This document shows, piece by piece, positions 1,989 to 11,813 of a stretch of DNA of 26,102 bases (its first letter is position 1; each line of letters opens with the position of its first letter). This DNA comes from a virus. Under the pieces are notes generated by a model, which searched no databases, was not told where the DNA came from, and saw only the letters and a program-made list of their open reading frames with translations. Where the stretch lies: positions 1-26,102 of IMG/VR virus record IMGVR_UViG_3300042306_000316; one strand, given 5' to 3'. The position numbers and the translations under genes are program-made.

Positions 1989-4900
1989 TTATTTTTTATC
2001 TTTGTTTGCTTTTCCTTTCAAACAACCTTGCATTTCCTTTCCTAATCCACTTACAACAGATTTAGATTCTCCTTTTGTACGATATACCTCTTTACCCAAT
2101 TCTGCTTTTGTTTTTCCATTTACGAATACAATAGAATCATCTTTTGGTGATACTCTAACTCTTTTTTCTAAATGAGAAACCAATCCTTGTCTACCCTCTG
2201 GTGTATCCAATTTTCCAGTATATCCAGAAAGTTCTGCTAAACATTGTCTATAATATTCAGGTTCAACATTATCACCTCCAATATTTTGAGAACTAACACC
2301 ATCTCTTTCACCTAATATATAAGATGCGAAGTGCATTCTATGTAGGAAATCCTTTACATATGCTTGTTGATGTGGTCCGTTATCTGCGTTTTTATCATAA
2401 GGGTATGCTGGTGGTTTTGTTGCTTTATCTGCTTTTTGAATTTCAGTTACTAATTCAGTATGAGCTTCACCCATAACATCTCTACGAGTTTTAGCTGCTG
2501 CTTTTAATATACCAGCACTATTTGCCAAATTTAATAATTCATCTGCACTTAAATTAAATGCTGGTGCTAATTTAGCTGCTGTTTCCGGTGTTACCTTTTC
2601 CAACATTTCACTTACTTTAATTAAAACTTTTAAAGCGGCTGTTGGTGCTGGCGTATCACCTGCACATGCAATAGCTATTCTAGCTGCATCTTTTTCAGAT
2701 TCTACTGGAGTTTTTATACCCAACTCAGCTGCTTTTTTATCAAACCAAGGTTTACCTTTACATTCATCTAAATAATTCTTTTTTCCACCACCTCTTACTG
2801 GGTATGCACTAACTACTTTTGCTATAATTGCGTCTTGTGCATTTCTCTCATTTGGTTTCATTGAATCTCTACCCTCATCAAATTTTCTACATGCATCCTC
2901 AATGCCAGCAGAAGCTTCCGCTACTTTTTTACTAACATCTTGCATTTTCTTTGCAAGCTTAGGGTCTAAGTTACCACCCATAGTTTGATTCATAGCTTTT
3001 ATCTTCTCATCAACTGATGTATTGTTATGTGGGTCATTATATGCACTTTTGTTGGATGTATGCTTAAATCCAACAGTACCATCTTCTCTTTCATACATAA
3101 CACCAGTATCACTTTCAGTTAATGTATCTATATAATTTAATTGCTTTTGATAATGTTGTTTTTGTTTAGGAGTTTTTGCATTTTTCATTAACTCAACAAA
3201 ATGTTTTTTAAGTATTGACTTAGATTGCTTATCCATAATAACACCCATTGGATATGGTGGTGTTTGTTTTTTAGCTGCTTTATACTTTGATTGATACATT
3301 AAAACCTTTACTTCGGTTTTTGCAGTTTCCAATGCGATTTTAGCCCATCTCTTTCTATCTTTTTGCGGAATTTCTTGAGCTAATGGGGTTTCCATTATTT
3401 CATTTATAATTGCATCTTCCTCCTGCGGTGTTAAGTTTCCACCTTTTTTCCAAATTTGATTAATATATTTACCACCATTATTTTCTCCCAAAGATGATGC
3501 AGGAGAACCTGCAGGTCTTAAATAATTACTATTTATTTCAGCTTGTCTTTTTAGCATGAAATCCGTTGCATATTTAGCTTTATTTTTAGATTTGTCAAAT
3601 TCAGATTCAACTTTAGCAATTCTATCATCAACAAACTTTTTAAGTTGTGCTGGTTTCATTTTTGAGAAGTCCGGCTCAGTATCATTTGTTGGTTTAGGTT
3701 CTGCTTTAGTAGGTTTTCTTTTAACATCAGCAGTTTTTCTATAATCCATACCACTACCTGCTATTTTCTTTGGAGCTTCTTTATCAGCTTTTGTCATTTT
3801 ATGAGTACCACCTTTTACAGCCGCATCTCTTGCTTCTTTTGATTTAAACACGGATGTCATACCAGTATCTTTTTTGATAGCTGTAAATGTTTCACCTTTT
3901 GCTTCCAAAGTAATTTCTGAAATTATCTCCCTTACTAATGATTTTATTCCCATTTTATTTATATTTTCGTTATAGATTTCTTTGTTTACCTTGCCATATT
4001 CTCTCATCAAAATTCCTGCAATTGCATTTGCTTGATTTTCTATTCTAGAACCAGCTGAACCATCTTTATCAATGTTCTTAAGGAATCCCTTTTCTTCTTG
4101 CTTTCTATGTACCATTTCATGTGCAATAGTTCTTAAAATATCAGCTGTCAATCTTTTATCGGTTGCAACAAATATTTCTTTTGAAGAAGGGTCATATCCA
4201 CCTAAAGCTGCTAATTCATTTTTAAATTCATTTCCACTCACTAAATTAACTTTTGGAGTTTCTTTTAAATTTAATCTCTTAGATGCAAATTCAACAAAAT
4301 CATTTATAGAAGTTTGCTTTGAGTTTGATGTTTTTTCTTTCAATAAACTAGCTAAATCTTTTAATTTATCTTTCTTTTCTTTTTCTTTTTCTTTTTGGGC
4401 TTTTTCAAACTTATATGACCTTATACTTTCTAATTTTTGCTGAGGAGTCATTTTGTAAGTTTTCATTTTCTCCAACCCCAATCTACAAAGTTTTTCAAAA
4501 AAATCTTTACTAGCAAGCTCATCATTCTTATCACCAACACCTTCTAATACTAAATCATATCCTTCAATTTCCTTCCAAAATGATTCTAATATACCACCAC
4601 TTAATGCACTTGCAGCCAAACCACTTCCAGCTGCCGCATATGGATTTGATACTCCAAGTGTTTCTGCCAACGCATGCTTTCCAAAATCTTTTGCAATATG
4701 TGCAAGAATTTCACCAGCACCATGATGTGCAGCTTCTTTAGCTACCGTTCCGGCTACTTGTGTTCCAGCTACTTGCGTTCCACCTGCTGCAGCTCCACCA
4801 AGTCCCGCTTTAGCTAATAACCATGGGCCAGCCAATGCACCTCCAATTATCAATGAGGCTTCAATTGCCAAATGTTTAACTGCGTGTTTTCTTTCATGCT

Positions 4901-7900
4901 CAACATGCTCTGCATGATGTGCAACATGCTTTTGTTCCGGAGTTAAATCATCTTCTAAATCAGCAACTTCTTGCGTAGATGGGACCTCTTTTCCCGGAGG
5001 CCAACATAACCAACATCTTTCTGTTTTTTGTGTTGTATTACCTTGAGCATCTAACTTTTGTCCTTTTTCATTTATTTCCTCTCCATCTTTATCATAGTAT
5101 TTTCCATCTCTCTTAAAATATCCTGTTTTAGAATCCAATTCACTTGCTTTAAAGGCGTTTTCTTTGGTAGTACCTACCGCTTTTCCACGTTCTCTAGGAC
5201 CTATATAACCAGCGCCCATCAATCCAGTATAATATGAACCATCGGGTCCAAAATCAGCTGGGTCTGGTTTTTCTCCACTTTCATATACAGGTACTGTTTT
5301 ATATTTTGGATTTCCTTCTTCATCTCTTTTTTGATAATCTTCTACGTGTACGTCTTTACATTTACTATCATCACGTTTCTCTTTCTTTTTACCTGTCTTA
5401 TCTAAAGATGCTAAATAATCTTGTCTATGTTGAGGAGCTTCTTTTATAATTTCATTCGTATTTGCATGAGGTCCTTTTGGTGCATCACTACAATCTTTAG
5501 TAGTACCAGATCTACCTGTTTTGTATTTTTGTTCTACTGCTTTATATACATTTTTTAGCATTTTTCCTTTTTTCATAAGCCAGTTACCAACCATAGTATC
5601 TTGCATTGCTTTCTGAATAATCGTTCTATCATTTAATGCTTTATCAATTGCCTCTGCTTTATCTTCATCAGACATTCCATCCAAATATTCATACGCCTGA
5701 TTTTCTTGATGTGATAATCCTTCCTTTTCTTTTGCTATTTGTTCATTTGCTTCTTTATCGGTTGGAACTGCATCTCTAGTAGTAGGATTTTCATTATTAG
5801 CATCTGCTTTATTAGCTGATGATGGTTGTGTATCTGCACCAGTTTGTTTACCACTCTTAGCTGCCACACCAAATTCTGATGCGAACTCATTTGATGTTTC
5901 AATGGCTTCATCTATATTCTGGTCGATAATCATTGTTTTTAATGGTAATGGATTATCAGGATGCTCCATATTATATGCCGTAATTGCTGCCCATCTATGG
6001 TGTCCATCAACCACATATCCATCTTTACTTACATAAAGTGGTGCTGTCATTTTCTTATATGATGGGTGTGAAGGTCCTGCATCTAATACTGATTTCATTC
6101 CTAATACTTTATCACCAACTAATTCACTTTGAGTTGCTTTTAATGATTCGGATGGAACGTCCGCATCAGTTACTTTAATGCCTTTATCAGCCAACATTTG
6201 TCTAAAGTATGGTTCTCCATCGGCTTCCGTAGCAGTTGGGTCTGTTTCTTTTGCTTTTTGTAATACATCCCACGCTTGAGTACCTTCCCTTGGCTCACCT
6301 TTAAATTGTGGCATATCTTTACGAGGAATTCCTTTATTACCAGAACAAAATAAGTTTGAATTTGGTAATGATACTTTACATAAATTATATGTTGGTTTTT
6401 GATTCTTCTTTACTTCAGCTTCATATGCTGCTTTTTCTTCTCCGTTCAATCCCTTAGCCTGCTCCTCACTATATCCCATCTTCTCTCTAGCAATACCTTC
6501 AGCTTTTTTCTTATCGTCTTTAAAGTCATCATAGTACTTATTCATTTCAGTACTCTTTTGCTTTAAGAATTCAGGATCTATATCTTTTAATCCCGGCTCA
6601 GTTTCAATTGTTGTTCCTGCTATCTTACCATCTTTCTCAACACCCTTTTCATTTTTAGGTGGTGGGGTTTCTATTGGAGTAAACTTACCAGGAACATCAG
6701 TACCATCAGTCTTTTTAGCTGCAGGTTGCTCGGCCGGCTTTTCAGTTGATGTAGTTGGTTGTTGTACCGGTTCTTCTTTTGAAGATGTTGCAGCTGCTTT
6801 TGCTCTTTGAGTAGCTTTTTTAACTGCTCTTGGAGGAAGTTCTTGTACCGTTATCTTTTCACCATTTTGTAAAGTACCTGTAATTGATTTTTCAAATAGT
6901 GCAAATACATCTTCGTTTAAAGAATTCTCAAATGCCATTTCAACCACCGATTCAGTTCTTACATATTTTGCAGGACCATTTGGTTTATCGGAATAATATC
7001 CACCACCAATAGAATATAATGAACCACCGCTATCAGTTTTAGCTTCTTTGCCCGGCTTCTCTTTTTTTATATCATCCTTAGTTGCCTTTGGAGTTTCTTC
7101 CGGCTTAGTTGGTTCTTCTTTTGGTTTATCCTCAGGCTTATCTTTTGGTTTAGTATCAGTTGGAGTTTCCTCAGGTTTTTTTGCTGAAGGTTGTTCCGGC
7201 TTAGTATCAGTTGGAGTTTCCTCAGGTTTAGCTGGTTCTTCTTTTGGTTTATCTTCCGGCTTATCTTCTGGTTTAGTATCAGTTGGTTGCTCAGGTTTTT
7301 GTTGTGATTTCATTCTCTGTCTTCTCATATCAACATGCGAATTACCAACCGGTGCAATTACTGTATATCCAGCATCTTCTGCTTCTTTAATTTTTCTATC
7401 TAATTCTTTTTGACGGAAACCATTATAAGCCTGTTGGCCTTTCATAATTTCATTATCACCCATTTTACCCTCATCGTTATAATTTAACTCATAAAGGTCT
7501 TTCTTTTGTGCATCCGTTAAATTATTCCAATCAACCTCACCATCAAATTGTGAACTTCCACCTTTTTTAGCTTGGTCTATAATCCATTGCTTACCTTCAT
7601 CATCTAAATAATCTTCAGGCTTCAGATTATCACCTTGCCCAACCATATTAGTCCAAATAGATGCTCTAGATTTTGATGGGCTACCTAATTCTTTTTCTAT
7701 TTCTTTATATACTTGAGATTTATCATCTTCTATATTTGCATTTTCATCCCAACTACTTTCTTCTGCATTATCAAAGTGTCCTTTTACTCCATCTCTAATT
7801 TCAGCTTGCTCTCCACCAAATTGAATATTACCATCCTTATCTTTACTCATACCACCTTCACCCACAAACATTACTTTTGTATCTTTAGGTAGTTTTTGTA

Positions 7901-9443
7901 TTTGCTCAATGGTTTGCTTTGTACTTTCAAGTTCACCACCATGCTCTACACCAATAATCAATGAACCATTTGGAGTTGTATCAACATCTAAATCTTCTTG
8001 ATTACCATTTTCATCTTTAGTAGTTTTTCTTTTCTTTAAATTAGATGCTGCTTTTGTAGTTTGTTCTTTGGTTTTTTCCTTTTTTGCGTTTTGCTTTATT
8101 TTTTCTCTAACATCTTTTGTAGCTTTTACTTGATTTAATAAGTCCGGGTCCATTTTATCCCAATCAAGTCCTGTATTTGCAAATAGTTCAGGATGTTTAG
8201 CTTGTAATCTTTTTAAAGATTCTATATCATTTGCATCACTTTCTGCTTTATCTAATAAGTCATATAAATCAGAAGTTGCTTTATCTATCTTTGTTTCTTC
8301 GGGCTCATCACCTAATGCAGCTGGTGCTGGTGGTTCTTCACCATCTTTAGGTTCTTCTCCATCTGCTGGTGGGGTTGTATCGGGCTTTGATGGCTCGTTT
8401 GCTGGCGGTTCTTCATTAGGGCCGGCTTCAGGTCCTTTTGGTTCGTCATCTCCCCATTTTGCAGAAGTTCTTTCACCACCATCACTATCTGGATATGGAA
8501 TATCGGCTTTATATGGTTCTCCATATTTTTCCTCATACTCTTTTTTTCTTGCAAGGAAATTTCCTACTGCAGCATCTGCGATTTCTTTATCACCACCTTT
8601 GCTTGCTTTTCTCATTTCCTTTTCCACTTTATGCTGTGCGTATTCAGTATTAGCTTTATCCGCTGCTTTATCATCACCACTCTTTTGAGCATCATTCATT
8701 TTTTTCTCCGCATCAGTTATGGCTGTATCTAATTGAGTATCACTCATAGCATGTAGTGAATCATCATATCCTTTTTTCTTTGCTTCTTCCTTATCCTTTG
8801 CTACTTTATCAGCCTTATTTTTAAAATCTTCAGGACTTCCAGGAGTTGGTTCTTTTTCAGCTTCACTATCCTCTTTATCCTTTTGTGCTAATTTTTCACT
8901 AGCAGCTTTTTCTCTATCTAAACGAGCTCCCATAGCAGGGTCTGCTTTTGGGTCAAACATTGCTGCTGCTTTTTTCTTTTTTTCATCTTCAGCTGCAGCT
9001 CCACCTTCTTTACCATCTTCACCTTCTTTACCTTTTGCATCTTCTGGTGGTTTAGCCTTACCATCTTTCTCCGCACCTAATTCCTGATTCATTGTTTCTC
9101 TTTCAGGACTTCCTTCCGGTGGTAATGTTGCTTCTGCAGCCTTTCTACCAGGGGAATCTTCAGGCTGTCTTAATAAATTACCAACAATACCTTCTTTATC
9201 TTCACCACTAGCACTTTTATATCTAACTTTTTTATTAAGTGCTGGATTTGTAAACCCGCCAGCTTCTGCTTCATTCAAGCTTTGTAATATTTCAGATTTA
9301 ACATGACCCAAACCCATTTCGTTTAACACAATTTCCAATTCTTTTACATGCATTGGATTTTTTGGGTTTGGCATTCCATCATTTACTCTGTATGCCCAAT
9401 CAGCTACTATTTCGTTTATTAATTCAGATAAATTCATATTCAT
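1989..9443 (-). CDS. Giant multidomain phage protein (ParB-like and HExxH metallopeptidase-like domains)
   Basis: This is a single 2484-residue open frame. Residues 1-110 form a compact start domain (NLSELINEIVADWAYRVNDG). About 110-480 is charged low-complexity sequence. About 488-705 looks like an alpha/beta domain with GVEHGGE near its start and GNSHVDM near its end, loosely like the TraB/ChaN/EreA group (weak). About 715-795 is a Pro/Glu/Lys/Thr tandem repeat. About 1018-1200 includes a ParB/sulfiredoxin-like domain with DGHHRW at 1146-1151. A Cys pair (CWLC) lies near 1480 and a hydrophobic Ala/Gly-rich stretch at about 1525-1560. About 1728-1825 holds a zincin motif, HEMVH (His1775, Glu1776, His1779), with Glu1802 in ENQA as a possible third ligand. 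The C-terminal 600 residues are mostly helical and unrecognised. Its place among late genes suggests a virion or ejected protein; this is inference. The start overlaps the nuclease stop as TAATG, and Met3 is an alternative start. Confidence 0.85.
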   Translation of the reverse strand: MNMNLSELINEIVADWAYRVNDGMPNPKNPMHVKELEIVLNEMGLGHVKSEILQSLNEAEAGGFTNPALNKKVRYKSASGEDKEGIVGNLLRQPEDSPGRKAAEATLPPEGSPERETMNQELGAEKDGKAKPPEDAKGKEGEDGKEGGAAAEDEKKKKAAAMFDPKADPAMGARLDREKAASEKLAQKDKEDSEAEKEPTPGSPEDFKNKADKVAKDKEEAKKKGYDDSLHAMSDTQLDTAITDAEKKMNDAQKSGDDKAADKANTEYAQHKVEKEMRKASKGGDKEIADAAVGNFLARKKEYEEKYGEPYKADIPYPDSDGGERTSAKWGDDEPKGPEAGPNEEPPANEPSKPDTTPPADGEEPKDGEEPPAPAALGDEPEETKIDKATSDLYDLLDKAESDANDIESLKRLQAKHPELFANTGLDWDKMDPDLLNQVKATKDVREKIKQNAKKEKTKEQTTKAASNLKKRKTTKDENGNQEDLDVDTTPNGSLIIGVEHGGELESTKQTIEQIQKLPKDTKVMFVGEGGMSKDKDGNIQFGGEQAEIRDGVKGHFDNAEESSWDENANIEDDKSQVYKEIEKELGSPSKSRASIWTNMVGQGDNLKPEDYLDDEGKQWIIDQAKKGGSSQFDGEVDWNNLTDAQKKDLYELNYNDEGKMGDNEIMKGQQAYNGFRQKELDRKIKEAEDAGYTVIAPVGNSHVDMRRQRMKSQQKPEQPTDTKPEDKPEDKPKEEPAKPEETPTDTKPEQPSAKKPEETPTDTKPKDKPEDKPKEEPTKPEETPKATKDDIKKEKPGKEAKTDSGGSLYSIGGGYYSDKPNGPAKYVRTESVVEMAFENSLNEDVFALFEKSITGTLQNGEKITVQELPPRAVKKATQRAKAAATSSKEEPVQQPTTSTEKPAEQPAAKKTDGTDVPGKFTPIETPPPKNEKGVEKDGKIAGTTIETEPGLKDIDPEFLKQKSTEMNKYYDDFKDDKKKAEGIAREKMGYSEEQAKGLNGEEKAAYEAEVKKNQKPTYNLCKVSLPNSNLFCSGNKGIPRKDMPQFKGEPREGTQAWDVLQKAKETDPTATEADGEPYFRQMLADKGIKVTDADVPSESLKATQSELVGDKVLGMKSVLDAGPSHPSYKKMTAPLYVSKDGYVVDGHHRWAAITAYNMEHPDNPLPLKTMIIDQNIDEAIETSNEFASEFGVAAKSGKQTGADTQPSSANKADANNENPTTRDAVPTDKEANEQIAKEKEGLSHQENQAYEYLDGMSDEDKAEAIDKALNDRTIIQKAMQDTMVGNWLMKKGKMLKNVYKAVEQKYKTGRSGTTKDCSDAPKGPHANTNEIIKEAPQHRQDYLASLDKTGKKKEKRDDSKCKDVHVEDYQKRDEEGNPKYKTVPVYESGEKPDPADFGPDGSYYTGLMGAGYIGPRERGKAVGTTKENAFKASELDSKTGYFKRDGKYYDKDGEEINEKGQKLDAQGNTTQKTERCWLCWPPGKEVPSTQEVADLEDDLTPEQKHVAHHAEHVEHERKHAVKHLAIEASLIIGGALAGPWLLAKAGLGGAAAGGTQVAGTQVAGTVAKEAAHHGAGEILAHIAKDFGKHALAETLGVSNPYAAAGSGLAASALSGGILESFWKEIEGYDLVLEGVGDKNDELASKDFFEKLCRLGLEKMKTYKMTPQQKLESIRSYKFEKAQKEKEKEKKDKLKDLASLLKEKTSNSKQTSINDFVEFASKRLNLKETPKVNLVSGNEFKNELAALGGYDPSSKEIFVATDKRLTADILRTIAHEMVHRKQEEKGFLKNIDKDGSAGSRIENQANAIAGILMREYGKVNKEIYNENINKMGIKSLVREIISEITLEAKGETFTAIKKDTGMTSVFKSKEARDAAVKGGTHKMTKADKEAPKKIAGSGMDYRKTADVKRKPTKAEPKPTNDTEPDFSKMKPAQLKKFVDDRIAKVESEFDKSKNKAKYATDFMLKRQAEINSNYLRPAGSPASSLGENNGGKYINQIWKKGGNLTPQEEDAIINEIMETPLAQEIPQKDRKRWAKIALETAKTEVKVLMYQSKYKAAKKQTPPYPMGVIMDKQSKSILKKHFVELMKNAKTPKQKQHYQKQLNYIDTLTESDTGVMYEREDGTVGFKHTSNKSAYNDPHNNTSVDEKIKAMNQTMGGNLDPKLAKKMQDVSKKVAEASAGIEDACRKFDEGRDSMKPNERNAQDAIIAKVVSAYPVRGGGKKNYLDECKGKPWFDKKAAELGIKTPVESEKDAARIAIACAGDTPAPTAALKVLIKVSEMLEKVTPETAAKLAPAFNLSADELLNLANSAGILKAAAKTRRDVMGEAHTELVTEIQKADKATKPPAYPYDKNADNGPHQQAYVKDFLHRMHFASYILGERDGVSSQNIGGDNVEPEYYRQCLAELSGYTGKLDTPEGRQGLVSHLEKRVRVSPKDDSIVFVNGKTKAELGKEVYRTKGESKSVVSGLGKEMQGCLKGKANKDKK
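7075..7310 (-). repeat. Imperfect tandem repeat coding for Pro/Glu/Lys/Thr-rich linker
   Basis: Units built on KPEETPTDTKP and KPEDKPKEEP recur inside the giant protein at about residues 715-795, and the underlying DNA repeats with a period near 100 bases. It probably encodes an extended linker between the domain at 488-705 and the rest of the protein. Confidence 0.75.
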
Positions 9444-10045
9444 TAAAATTTGTGGTCTTTTGCTTCACATAGCATTTCCAATTCTTCCCAAGAAAATTTA
9501 GGTTTTTCATTTAGAAATACATAACATTTCCATTTCTTTTGTTTTTCAAAATAGATGTGTTTTTGTAAATGCGATGGAATTGCTGCTCCAGTTCCTACTC
9601 TCTTTGCAGGAGTATCAAAGAATGTTTTTATTAGTACTGTAATGTTTTCGGTATCATCCCATTTACGGATTTGTTCTTCTAACATTCTCCACTCACCTCT
9701 ATTAAGATATTTGTCCTGCATTATACAATTTAAGTAAGAAAACGTTTGTTTTAGATTTTCCATATTGTCAGAAAATGTTGCAGCTGGTGCACCATGTCCT
9801 TTATCGTATATGTTTGCTTTATAATCTTCCGCATCTGATGTTTTGATATTCACTTCCTTATAAAAATCCATAGCTCCTCTATTCACATTTGTAGGACGGT
9901 TTGTTGAACGATACTTAATTACTAAGGGTTGTTCTAACGATTGTGAGTATAAAACCTCAAACACATTATTTTTAATTCTTACATTTTGTCCTAAAGAAAC
10001 CAAAGAAAGGATTAAAAAACTAAAAAGGATAACGATTTTCTTCAT
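9443..10045 (-). CDS. Secreted DNA/RNA non-specific endonuclease (beta-beta-alpha-Me, NucA-like)
   Basis: This is a 200-residue protein. Residues 1-20 (MKKIVILFSFLILSLVSLGQ) are a clear Sec signal peptide of Flavobacteriia style. The core matches the DRGH endonuclease family: YDKGHGAPAATF with likely general-base His84, then Asn106 in YLNCIMQ as the probable metal ligand, followed by LNRGEWRMLEEQIRKW, which mirrors the family's N..W..LE helix. Arg of DRGH is Lys82 here, a tolerated change. At 200 residues it is near the short end for the family. By family it cuts DNA and RNA without sequence specificity, here in the periplasm or outside the cell. Its stop overlaps the giant gene's start (TAATG), and an ATATTTATA motif lies 25 bases upstream, so it is probably made late together with the giant protein. 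Confidence 0.82.
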   Translation of the reverse strand: MKKIVILFSFLILSLVSLGQNVRIKNNVFEVLYSQSLEQPLVIKYRSTNRPTNVNRGAMDFYKEVNIKTSDAEDYKANIYDKGHGAPAATFSDNMENLKQTFSYLNCIMQDKYLNRGEWRMLEEQIRKWDDTENITVLIKTFFDTPAKRVGTGAAIPSHLQKHIYFEKQKKWKCYVFLNEKPKFSWEELEMLCEAKDHKF

Positions 10046-10084: not shown

Positions 10085-11371
10085 TTATAGTTTTCCGTAA
10101 TCCAAACCCCAACTAGCCTTAACAGGAAAACCACCTCCTTCAATGATTTCCTTCAATCCTTTAATCAAACTCTTATCAATATCAGTCGGAACATCAAAAA
10201 GGAACGAGTCATAGGTATATAAACAAAAATGGATACCACTACCTCTTATATAATCCAATATCTTTCTCATAACCTCAATGTTCATCTCAGTCTCAACGGC
10301 TTGTAATAAATAGTTGAATACCTTTTGTGCATTTGGTTGTTCTATCCAGCTCAATGGGATTTCTCTATGAGGTGTTTGTAAGTAACCCTGCTTTTGTGTT
10401 TCAATCCATAGGTTATCAATGTAATCAGCTACCGCATTAAAGTATGGTATCTTACGGAAATCATCATCAATACCACCATAAAGTAATTGGAACGTAATTC
10501 CTTTCGATTCATCCACATCACATCCATATTGTTCGGCTAACCACTCATGCACACTGGTTGTTGGGAGTTCGAAGTTCACCAACTTACCAATCAATCGAGG
10601 GTGATATGCGTTATAATCCATTTGTAAGAATATCCCATCCGATACAAAACATTCTCTACTACCATCGGTTTTGTTTAGGGCAGCATAGTTCACACCACCA
10701 TGTCTATTGGATGGTCTACCTGTCACCGTAAATGGATTGTATTCCGTAAACACTAAATTATCGGAGGAAAGCTGTTTAGTGGCTTGAGGCCATCTATCAG
10801 TAAATTTTTTCCCATCGACACGGATTCCGAATTGTTCAATATCTGAAAGGGTAGGTATAAAAACTTCGTTGTACCACTTAAGAGTAGTAGTGTAAGGTTC
10901 ATTATGGAAATACTTACCGAATTGCGGTTCTATTGCTTCTACAATCTTCATTAGAGGAAGGGATTGTATCAAGTCATCTCTATACCCTTTGTGAGTTAGG
11001 GTTGAAAGGAGAGGATTTAAAGGGGCTTCATAATCAATTACCTTTGCTTCCTTTCTAAAGTATGCCGAATCTACATCATATAGATTTACCGAAACATTAA
11101 GAGTATGTAATATCTTTTTCTTTTGGAATACCCACTTTTGTCCGTTGGTATTAAGTACCGTCTCTATTTCTTCATTAGATAGCGATAGAGCGTCTGTATG
11201 TTTATGTGGTAATATGTATAACCCATCGGAACATCGTACAACTACGAGCGAAAGAGAAGTGTTTAACGGATGCTTACTATTATCTACCCACAATGGATAC
11301 CAAATAGATACTTCCGTTTCCAGCTTTTGTTTTAATTCATTAATTTCCTGAATAGACTCAACAATATTCAT
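10085..11371 (-). CDS. Compact, divergent family A DNA polymerase
   Basis: The 428-residue protein starts at Met 11371; a longer frame from 11407 would begin inside a terminator and promoter. Palm and fingers motifs of family A are in order: a pre-palm segment like pol I (LSDIEQFGIRVDG, 175-187), a GRPSNRHGGVNYAAL block (218-232), motif A MDYNAYHPRL with Asp252, motif B KGITFQLLYGG (Lys290, Phe294, Tyr298, Gly299), and motif C TYDSF with Asp388. Both catalytic aspartates are present. Odd points: motif A lacks the usual Glu (DYSQIELR in pol I; His257 here), motif C has YDS instead of HDE, and the motif B Arg is missing. The N-terminal 160 residues show no intact 3'-5' exonuclease triad that I can identify. 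It presumably replicates phage DNA or repairs it; whether it is the main replicase is unclear. Confidence 0.8.
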   Translation of the reverse strand: MNIVESIQEINELKQKLETEVSIWYPLWVDNSKHPLNTSLSLVVVRCSDGLYILPHKHTDALSLSNEEIETVLNTNGQKWVFQKKKILHTLNVSVNLYDVDSAYFRKEAKVIDYEAPLNPLLSTLTHKGYRDDLIQSLPLMKIVEAIEPQFGKYFHNEPYTTTLKWYNEVFIPTLSDIEQFGIRVDGKKFTDRWPQATKQLSSDNLVFTEYNPFTVTGRPSNRHGGVNYAALNKTDGSRECFVSDGIFLQMDYNAYHPRLIGKLVNFELPTTSVHEWLAEQYGCDVDESKGITFQLLYGGIDDDFRKIPYFNAVADYIDNLWIETQKQGYLQTPHREIPLSWIEQPNAQKVFNYLLQAVETEMNIEVMRKILDYIRGSGIHFCLYTYDSFLFDVPTDIDKSLIKGLKEIIEGGGFPVKASWGLDYGKL

Positions 11372-11376
11372 AGATA

Positions 11377-11408
11377 CAAAGATACAAAAAAAATCCCAAA
11401 CTACCAAA
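11377..11408 (-). promoter_or_regulatory. Bacteroidetes-type promoter of the DNA polymerase gene
   Basis: The coding strand has TTTG (11408-11405), 20 bases, then TATCTTTG (11384-11377), a full consensus match. Only 5 bases separate the box from the ATG at 11371, so the mRNA may be leaderless. The promoter overlaps the tmRNA terminator hairpin. Confidence 0.6.
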
Positions 11409-11427: not shown

Positions 11428-11813
11428 TGGTGGAGATGAGGGGAATCGAACCCCTGTCTTACAAAGTAATCATAATACCAGCATATCACACGTTTAGGTA
11501 AAGTTTAATCTTATTCACTTTCCAAAATAATTGGGGCCGTATGGTTAGTACAGCTTTCCACCAACCTATCAGTTTTTAAGAGCCGATAGGTAGAGCTCCG
11601 TTTTGTTCACTTCTATTTAAATGTTCCACGAGTGATGCGGAATGAACTAAGCAGCGTATGCGTACTCAGAAGCCCCAATGAATTCCATCATAGAATCAAA
11701 GGTCATAGTTGACATTTCGTCAGTTATTGTTTTGTACAGATTTAAAGACATCTAGCACTTCTGTCTACGTGTGGTACTACCATTCTCATTGCAATCAAGT
11801 CCATGGCATCCCC
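11428..11813 (-). ncRNA. ssrA: Transfer-messenger RNA (tmRNA)
   Basis: This 386-base RNA has every core tmRNA part. The acceptor stem GGGGATG pairs with CATCTCC over 7 bp (one G-U), followed by an encoded ACCA end. The T-arm is AGGGG-TTCGATT-CCCCT. The D-like region reads TGGACTTGA. Helix 2 pairs CACACGT with ACGTGTG (11767-11773 with 11487-11493). A PK1-like pseudoknot lies at about 11732-11767 (AGACA/TGTCT with AGAT/ATCT). The probable resume codon is GAC at 11721-11719, preceded by AATAACT. The tag frame runs 24 codons to TAG at 11649-11647, starting DEMSTM and ending ASEYAYAA. Helix 5 encloses the end of the tag (11633-11643 with 11682-11690), and a further helix ACCTATC/GATAGGT follows (11564-11570 with 11585-11591). 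It would rescue stalled ribosomes and tag their products. It needs SmpB, which is not in this window. Confidence 0.95.

Follow-up and report, generated by a model that had tools for sequence, protein, structure and literature searches.

A 2,484-residue modular protein of a freshwater T4-like phage is a candidate head-packaged cargo precursor

A viral contig of 26,102 bases, hereafter the window, carries one gene that occupies positions 1989-9443 and raises the question of how a phage uses a single protein that joins several enzyme-like modules. The original prediction suggested a late protein that is either carried in the virion and ejected or processed as a polyprotein, perhaps by a protease domain of its own. 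The ORF call and translation confirmed one unbroken frame of 2,484 codons, with its ATG at 9443 and its stop at 1989-1991, and placed the gene, which we call P0001, on the minus strand, a detail that the prediction had omitted. The motifs that it named, the hydrophobic segment (about residues 1525-1625), and the strongly charged, low-complexity linkers between domains were all located in the translation. All of the window's features described below are likewise on the minus strand. Matches of the whole protein to the Pfam and NCBIfam families WHEP-TRS, Hairy_orange, and DUF4809 were under their cut-offs and were taken as chance.

The source is a freshwater, T4-like phage, and all main genes of the window are on the minus strand. 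In the sense of transcription, the window begins with genes for a tail sheath, a tube-like protein, a baseplate-hub-like protein (PF12322, phrog_150), and a presumed tape measure. These are followed by baseplate wedge-like genes, a tmRNA, a polA-like gene, a nuclease of NS type with a signal peptide, P0001, orf143, and a GH19 endolysin. P0001 is thus downstream of the sheath, tube, and baseplate genes on the same strand, and adjoins late or virion genes of the phage. The window, a 26-kb fragment, is without the major capsid protein (MCP), portal, and prohead protease genes of its own phage. Its tail sheath is closest to those of Microcystis phage Mel-JY01, a 484-kb uncultured phage, and Flavobacterium phage immuto. 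The style of the signal peptide, together with a Flavobacterium phage among the relatives, only hints at a host in the Bacteroidota.

The genes upstream of P0001 are part of a conserved neighborhood. The nuclease gene (9443..10045; PF01223, E 2e-19) has a stop that overlaps the start of P0001, and it is kept immediately upstream of most of the related giants; a secreted nuclease inside a phage late operon is unusual. The polA-like gene (10085-11407) codes for 440 residues that resemble DNA polymerase A in its C-terminal part only (phrog_17, E 2.8e-12), and it is also kept beside the giants. Next to it is the tmRNA (11428-11813, minus strand; RF00023, 89 bits), for which ARAGORN gave the tag DEMSTMTFDSMMEFIGASEYAYAA; a phage tmRNA is also kept in L002, L006, and L007.

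A second contig, L002, carries an identical full-length P0001, and identical partial copies are present on three further contigs. In addition, an independent 95-kb contig encodes a full-length homologue of 2,447 residues, whose best segment reaches 72% identity. With these copies and this homologue, we conclude that P0001 is neither an assembly artefact nor a chance ORF. A scan of viral contigs with just the N-terminal module (N-module) as query returned 211 loci. In nearly all of the 80 that were kept, the order is polA-like gene, nuclease, giant, and orf143, and the proteins range from 599 to 2,484 residues, P0001 being the longest. At the same locus, the 484-kb phage encodes a 358-residue protein beginning with the N-module, and Mel-JY01 has no homologue there. 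A search of a plasmid collection gave no match. Two short members of the locus (L208, 951-2945, 657 residues; L217, 5980-7803, 599 residues) have a cargo that appears nuclease-like by eye (D...SLKK and D...SMK, respectively), and these C-terminal parts had no Pfam match.

The cut made by T4 gp21 falls behind L/I-X-E, and the internal proteins of T4 have propeptides at their N-termini that target them to the capsid (PMC9026906). Residues 1-58 of P0001 (9270..9443; MNMNLSELINEIVADWAYRVNDGMPNPKNP...SLNE) form a helical propeptide-like module and candidate head-targeting element that is N-terminal in over 200 viral loci. The module ends in LNE (residues 56-58, 9270..9278) followed by A59, a candidate prohead-protease cut site. 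Among nonredundant homologues, the end of the module read [L/I]xE in 24/24 and [L/I]xD in 0/24, with alanine the commonest next residue, compared with 2.7 of 15 for [L/I]xE in random windows; for this and the other motif tests, the sequences were gathered by similarity, so that sampling was non-random, and the sets were made nonredundant and the controls drawn from the same proteins. The motif that closes a T4-type head-internal propeptide is present in every nonredundant member, and removal of the propeptide is predicted. The following module (residues 59-125, 9069..9269; FTNPALNKKVRYK...GNLLRQP) is duplicated in five relatives (L218, L219, L221, L222, and L224), and in the two members read closely the second, internal copy directly follows IEE|AD or LEE|AD. 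P0001 is not enriched in the motif overall (6 occurrences of [LI].E[AGS] vs 5.35 in shuffles), so global counts were dropped as evidence and the prohead-protease claim is drawn from motif position only. No strict LxE closely flanks the TraB-like or ParB modules of P0001, and short motifs that are conserved close to where modules start could belong to the fold rather than mark cut sites.

Related genomes supply both the protease and the head context. A gp21-type protease (Peptidase_S77) is encoded in three genomes (G057, G058, and G059), all of which have N-module giants. The MCPs of 11 related phages read QLLDE|A, QLLKE|A, QLISE|A, or QIVSE|A at what we take, by analogy with T4 gp23, to be the maturation position. 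In immuto, 23/30 head-cluster proteins have an LxE within their first 25 residues vs 5/34 other proteins (Fisher 5e-7), and the N-module is also N-terminal in gp78, whose gene lies a short way upstream of those for terminase and portal. In related giants, a ligase module starts directly after [L/I]xE|GG in 25/25. The giants that combine a nucleotidyltransferase with a zincin share with P0001 the zincin, mostly the hydrophobic segment, and sometimes the mid module; on 17 contigs they are 5.6-9.6 kb upstream of a T4-type portal gene on the same strand. On other zincin contigs the portal is 10-19 kb away in five and 64 kb away in one. Giants like L065, L051, and L067 are widespread, with 1,300-2,100 residues, a cytidylyltransferase-like domain, a zincin, and a ligase-like KTDG module near a T4-like portal, and L027 adds an HD domain. 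In the 484-kb phage (LR756508.1, 146009-149425 and 156507-158102), matches to portal and prohead protease come in pieces within single frames (1,387 and 576 residues), suggesting inteins or large insertions.

The zincin metallopeptidase domain of P0001 (residues 1704-1830, 3954..4334) contains HEMVH (1775-1779, at window 4107-4121) and the glutamate ligand E1802. The HExxH and the downstream glutamate (H86, E87, H90, and E113) are invariant in 39 diverse homologues, and the domain is probably catalytically active. Pfam metallopeptidase families matched it weakly but consistently, below their cut-off; PDB profile matches to Toxin B (E 0.04 or worse) left the HExxH uncovered and were ignored. 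Just before the domain is a candidate prohead-protease cut, LKE followed by K (residues 1701-1703, 4335..4343; SLLKE|KTSN). This site is supported by positional enrichment, in that [L/I]xE was found 5-20 residues upstream of the zincin in 34/45 nonredundant homologues vs 5.9 expected. Stand-alone zincins of 124-136 residues start with MKKFREYLKE|Q or MNYKQFLRE|S. The hydrophobic segment, rich in glycine and alanine (residues 1525-1625, 4569..4871), was recognized by composition and is kept beside the zincin in the head-cluster giants. After the zincin, residues 1834-1900 (3744..3944) hold an internal KSLVREIISEITLEAKG helix and a KSKEARDAA module similar to head-cluster proteins; this segment resembles the N-terminal helices of stand-alone proteins of the head cluster more closely than any other part of P0001 does. 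The KSKE module is itself N-terminal in two proteins of G016 encoded between portal and MCP.

The other domains that had been proposed, ParB-like and TraB-like, found partial support. The ParB/sulfiredoxin-like domain (residues 1008-1200, 5844..6422) contains DGHHR (1146-1150, at window 5994-6008), which is invariant in 11 homologues, and it matched phrog_2859 (E 1.7e-17). An AlphaFold2 model of the 71%-identical module of L019 reached a pLDDT of about 90 there. In Foldseek, this model matched sulfiredoxin 1xw3 with a probability of 0.92 and a TMt of 0.45, but an E of only 0.37. Profile matches to ParBc_2 (E 0.046, in only 2/11 sequences) and to SerK 1vk1 were weak, and there was no match to the ddrB-ParB family of Pfam. 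ParB and sulfiredoxin belong to one superfamily, as stated in the passages of PMC5512222 that bear on them. A ParB/sulfiredoxin-like fold is proposed for the DGHHR module on moderate evidence. For residues 485-725 (7269..7991), conserved in 13 homologues, a TraB-like fold is only suggested. This candidate TraB/ChaN-like domain has the motifs GVEHGG (498) and GNSHVD (700), and its AlphaFold2 model (pLDDT 83.8) had no match in the PDB; in a viral fold library it gave a weak match to a TraB family protein (probability 0.89, E 4e-3, TMq 0.31).

The remaining modules are conserved. A GGGYYSD hairpin module (residues 796-880, 6804..7058) recurs in most relatives and contains LNE|D (842-844) and LFE|K (849-851); in relatives it often reads VLIE|G...LLFE|A. 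The mid module (residues 1220-1500, 4944..5786), to which no fold was assigned, is 72% identical to that of L007 and is also present in the L051 giant. The C-terminal cargo module (residues 2060-2484, 1992..3266) belongs to a family of 12 sequences that also occurs alone behind the N-module, and it matched neither Pfam nor the PDB, leaving it without an assigned fold. A PD-(D/E)XK nuclease, proposed by eye from D..ISNKK, was rejected because the model, of low-to-medium confidence, consists mostly of helices with two strands in that region and matched nothing in the PDB.

These modules are reshuffled among relatives. The order in P0001 is N-module, TraB-like, GGGYYS, ParB-like, mid, hydrophobic, zincin, and C-terminal. 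Homologues of the kind anticipated do exist, but a shared domain order does not hold throughout: in L007 the ParB-like module is ahead of the TraB-like module, the reverse of P0001, and other relatives have no zincin or have different C-termini. The zincin, the C-terminal module, and the N-module were each seen alone or in other fusions. When the 330-residue C-terminal segments of 75 members were compared, they fell into 11 clusters without detectable mutual similarity. The suggestion of a multi-enzyme, late, virion-carried, and possibly cut protein thus gains indirect support at the sequence level from the reshuffling, the stand-alone modules, the head-cluster neighbors, and the LxE motifs at boundaries.

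From the LxE motifs that close the N-module and stand at module boundaries, together with the homologous modules of head clusters, we infer a head-packaged, prohead-protease-trimmed, and ejected polyvalent protein. We consider it probable that P0001 is a cargo precursor of this kind in a T4-like phage, with packaging, cleavage, ejection, and enzyme targets all inferred. P0001 would be made as one precursor, and residues 1-58 would serve as a core-targeting propeptide removed at LNE|A by the gp21-type prohead protease of the phage. Some downstream modules (zincin, ParB/Srx-like, TraB-like, and C-terminal cargo) could be separated at further LxE motifs, though probably not all. Ejection alongside the DNA would bring the parts to the host, on which they would act at an early stage of infection; the DGHHR module would perhaps be a nuclease or an NTPase, and the zincin would work as a peptidase. 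The zincin may have the host as its target, or else itself or other modules.

That last option leads to a different explanation, in which the zincin itself cuts the linkers of a polyvalent protein, before packaging or after ejection, and the LxE motifs have no role. The catalytic set of the zincin looks intact, and Iyer et al. 2017, in the passages concerned (PMC5512222), propose zincin processing of polyvalent proteins, citing P1 DdrB with its ParB domain and zincin. However, a zincin is missing from many members that share the N-module and its LxE site, the zincin is also found alone, and the enriched boundary motif fits gp21 specificity. We regard self-cutting as unlikely, and for the N-terminal cut the original proposal of an own protease is not favored because the motif there fits the gp21-type serine protease that related genomes encode; the zincin may still serve as a second processing enzyme.

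The gene neighborhood could be read in two further ways. With DNA-metabolism genes (polA-like and ssDNA-binding-like) and a secreted nuclease on one side, P0001 could be a late or middle intracellular polyprotein that is never packaged, its N-terminal helix and LxE being protein-interaction elements and its enzymes acting in the infected cell. This we find rather improbable, as homologous modules are located in head clusters near terminase, portal, and MCP, and the glutamate-specific motif resembles MCP maturation sites. Alternatively, the gene directly follows hub and wedge-like genes, as it might if its product were associated with the tail or baseplate and injected through the tail, but we found no structural tail fold in P0001, and its modules recur in head clusters; we give this reading very little credence. 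The position of P0001 downstream of baseplate genes and outside the head cluster does count against a head cargo. Alt-type head proteins of T4-like phages are likewise linked to baseplate genes, as the section of PMC5512222 on them describes, and the position is therefore not diagnostic.

Taken together, the loci point to a broader possibility, which we put forward tentatively: T4-like phages may have a polymorphic head-cargo locus in which a constant N-terminal head-delivery propeptide, cut by the prohead protease, is joined to freely swapped effector modules of at least 11 unrelated C-terminal types. In phage heads, such a locus would correspond to the polymorphic toxins, with several enzymes delivered per gene at fixed stoichiometry. 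It would explain how large multi-enzyme effectors are loaded into T4-like heads: polyvalent proteins would follow the T4 route of capsid targeting and prohead-protease cleavage. If this is true, a simple sequence rule, an N-module ending in L/I-X-E, would pick out head-delivered effectors from metagenomic sequences, and the swapped C-terminal modules of the locus could be read as new enzymes of anti-defence or host takeover.

Several known systems resemble P0001 in part. The giant late proteins of F116-like and Klebsiella ZX1 podoviruses, annotated PLxRFG or "structural", have the DGHHR module in common with it at 27-30% identity; unlike P0001, their match is limited to this module, and neither N-module nor LxE propeptide was detected. 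The nucleotidyltransferase-zincin-ligase giants (such as L065 and L051) and immuto gp88 share the zincin and LxE boundaries and are in the head cluster, whereas the former have a cytidylyltransferase-like front with a short leader and are at another locus than P0001. The polyvalent proteins, including P1 DdrB and the N4 virion RNAP, are closer in architecture as portrayed in the pertinent parts of PMC5512222: very large late proteins with a zincin, a ParB-like domain, and disparate domains that are reshuffled. P0001, as read from its sequence, likewise appears to combine at least two disparate activities in one large chain (zincin, Srx/ParB-like, and further modules), and it had no match to the polyvalent-protein domains of Pfam. 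Unlike the polyvalent proteins as those parts present them, it has a conserved propeptide ending at a T4-type prohead-protease motif, and we favor trimming by the prohead protease where zincin autoprocessing was proposed for them. Within the literature searched, polyvalent proteins and a prohead protease came together only in Iyer et al. 2017, which is no proof that the link is unpublished. The T4 internal head proteins (IPI-III and Alt; PMC9026906) have, like P0001, a propeptide running to L/I-X-E, for which core targeting and removal by gp21 are predicted in P0001, and its stand-alone relatives have short CTS-like N-termini as the T4 proteins do. Whereas each T4 internal protein delivers one small cargo behind a propeptide of 10-19 residues, P0001 has 2,484 residues, multiple modules, and a propeptide of ~58 residues.
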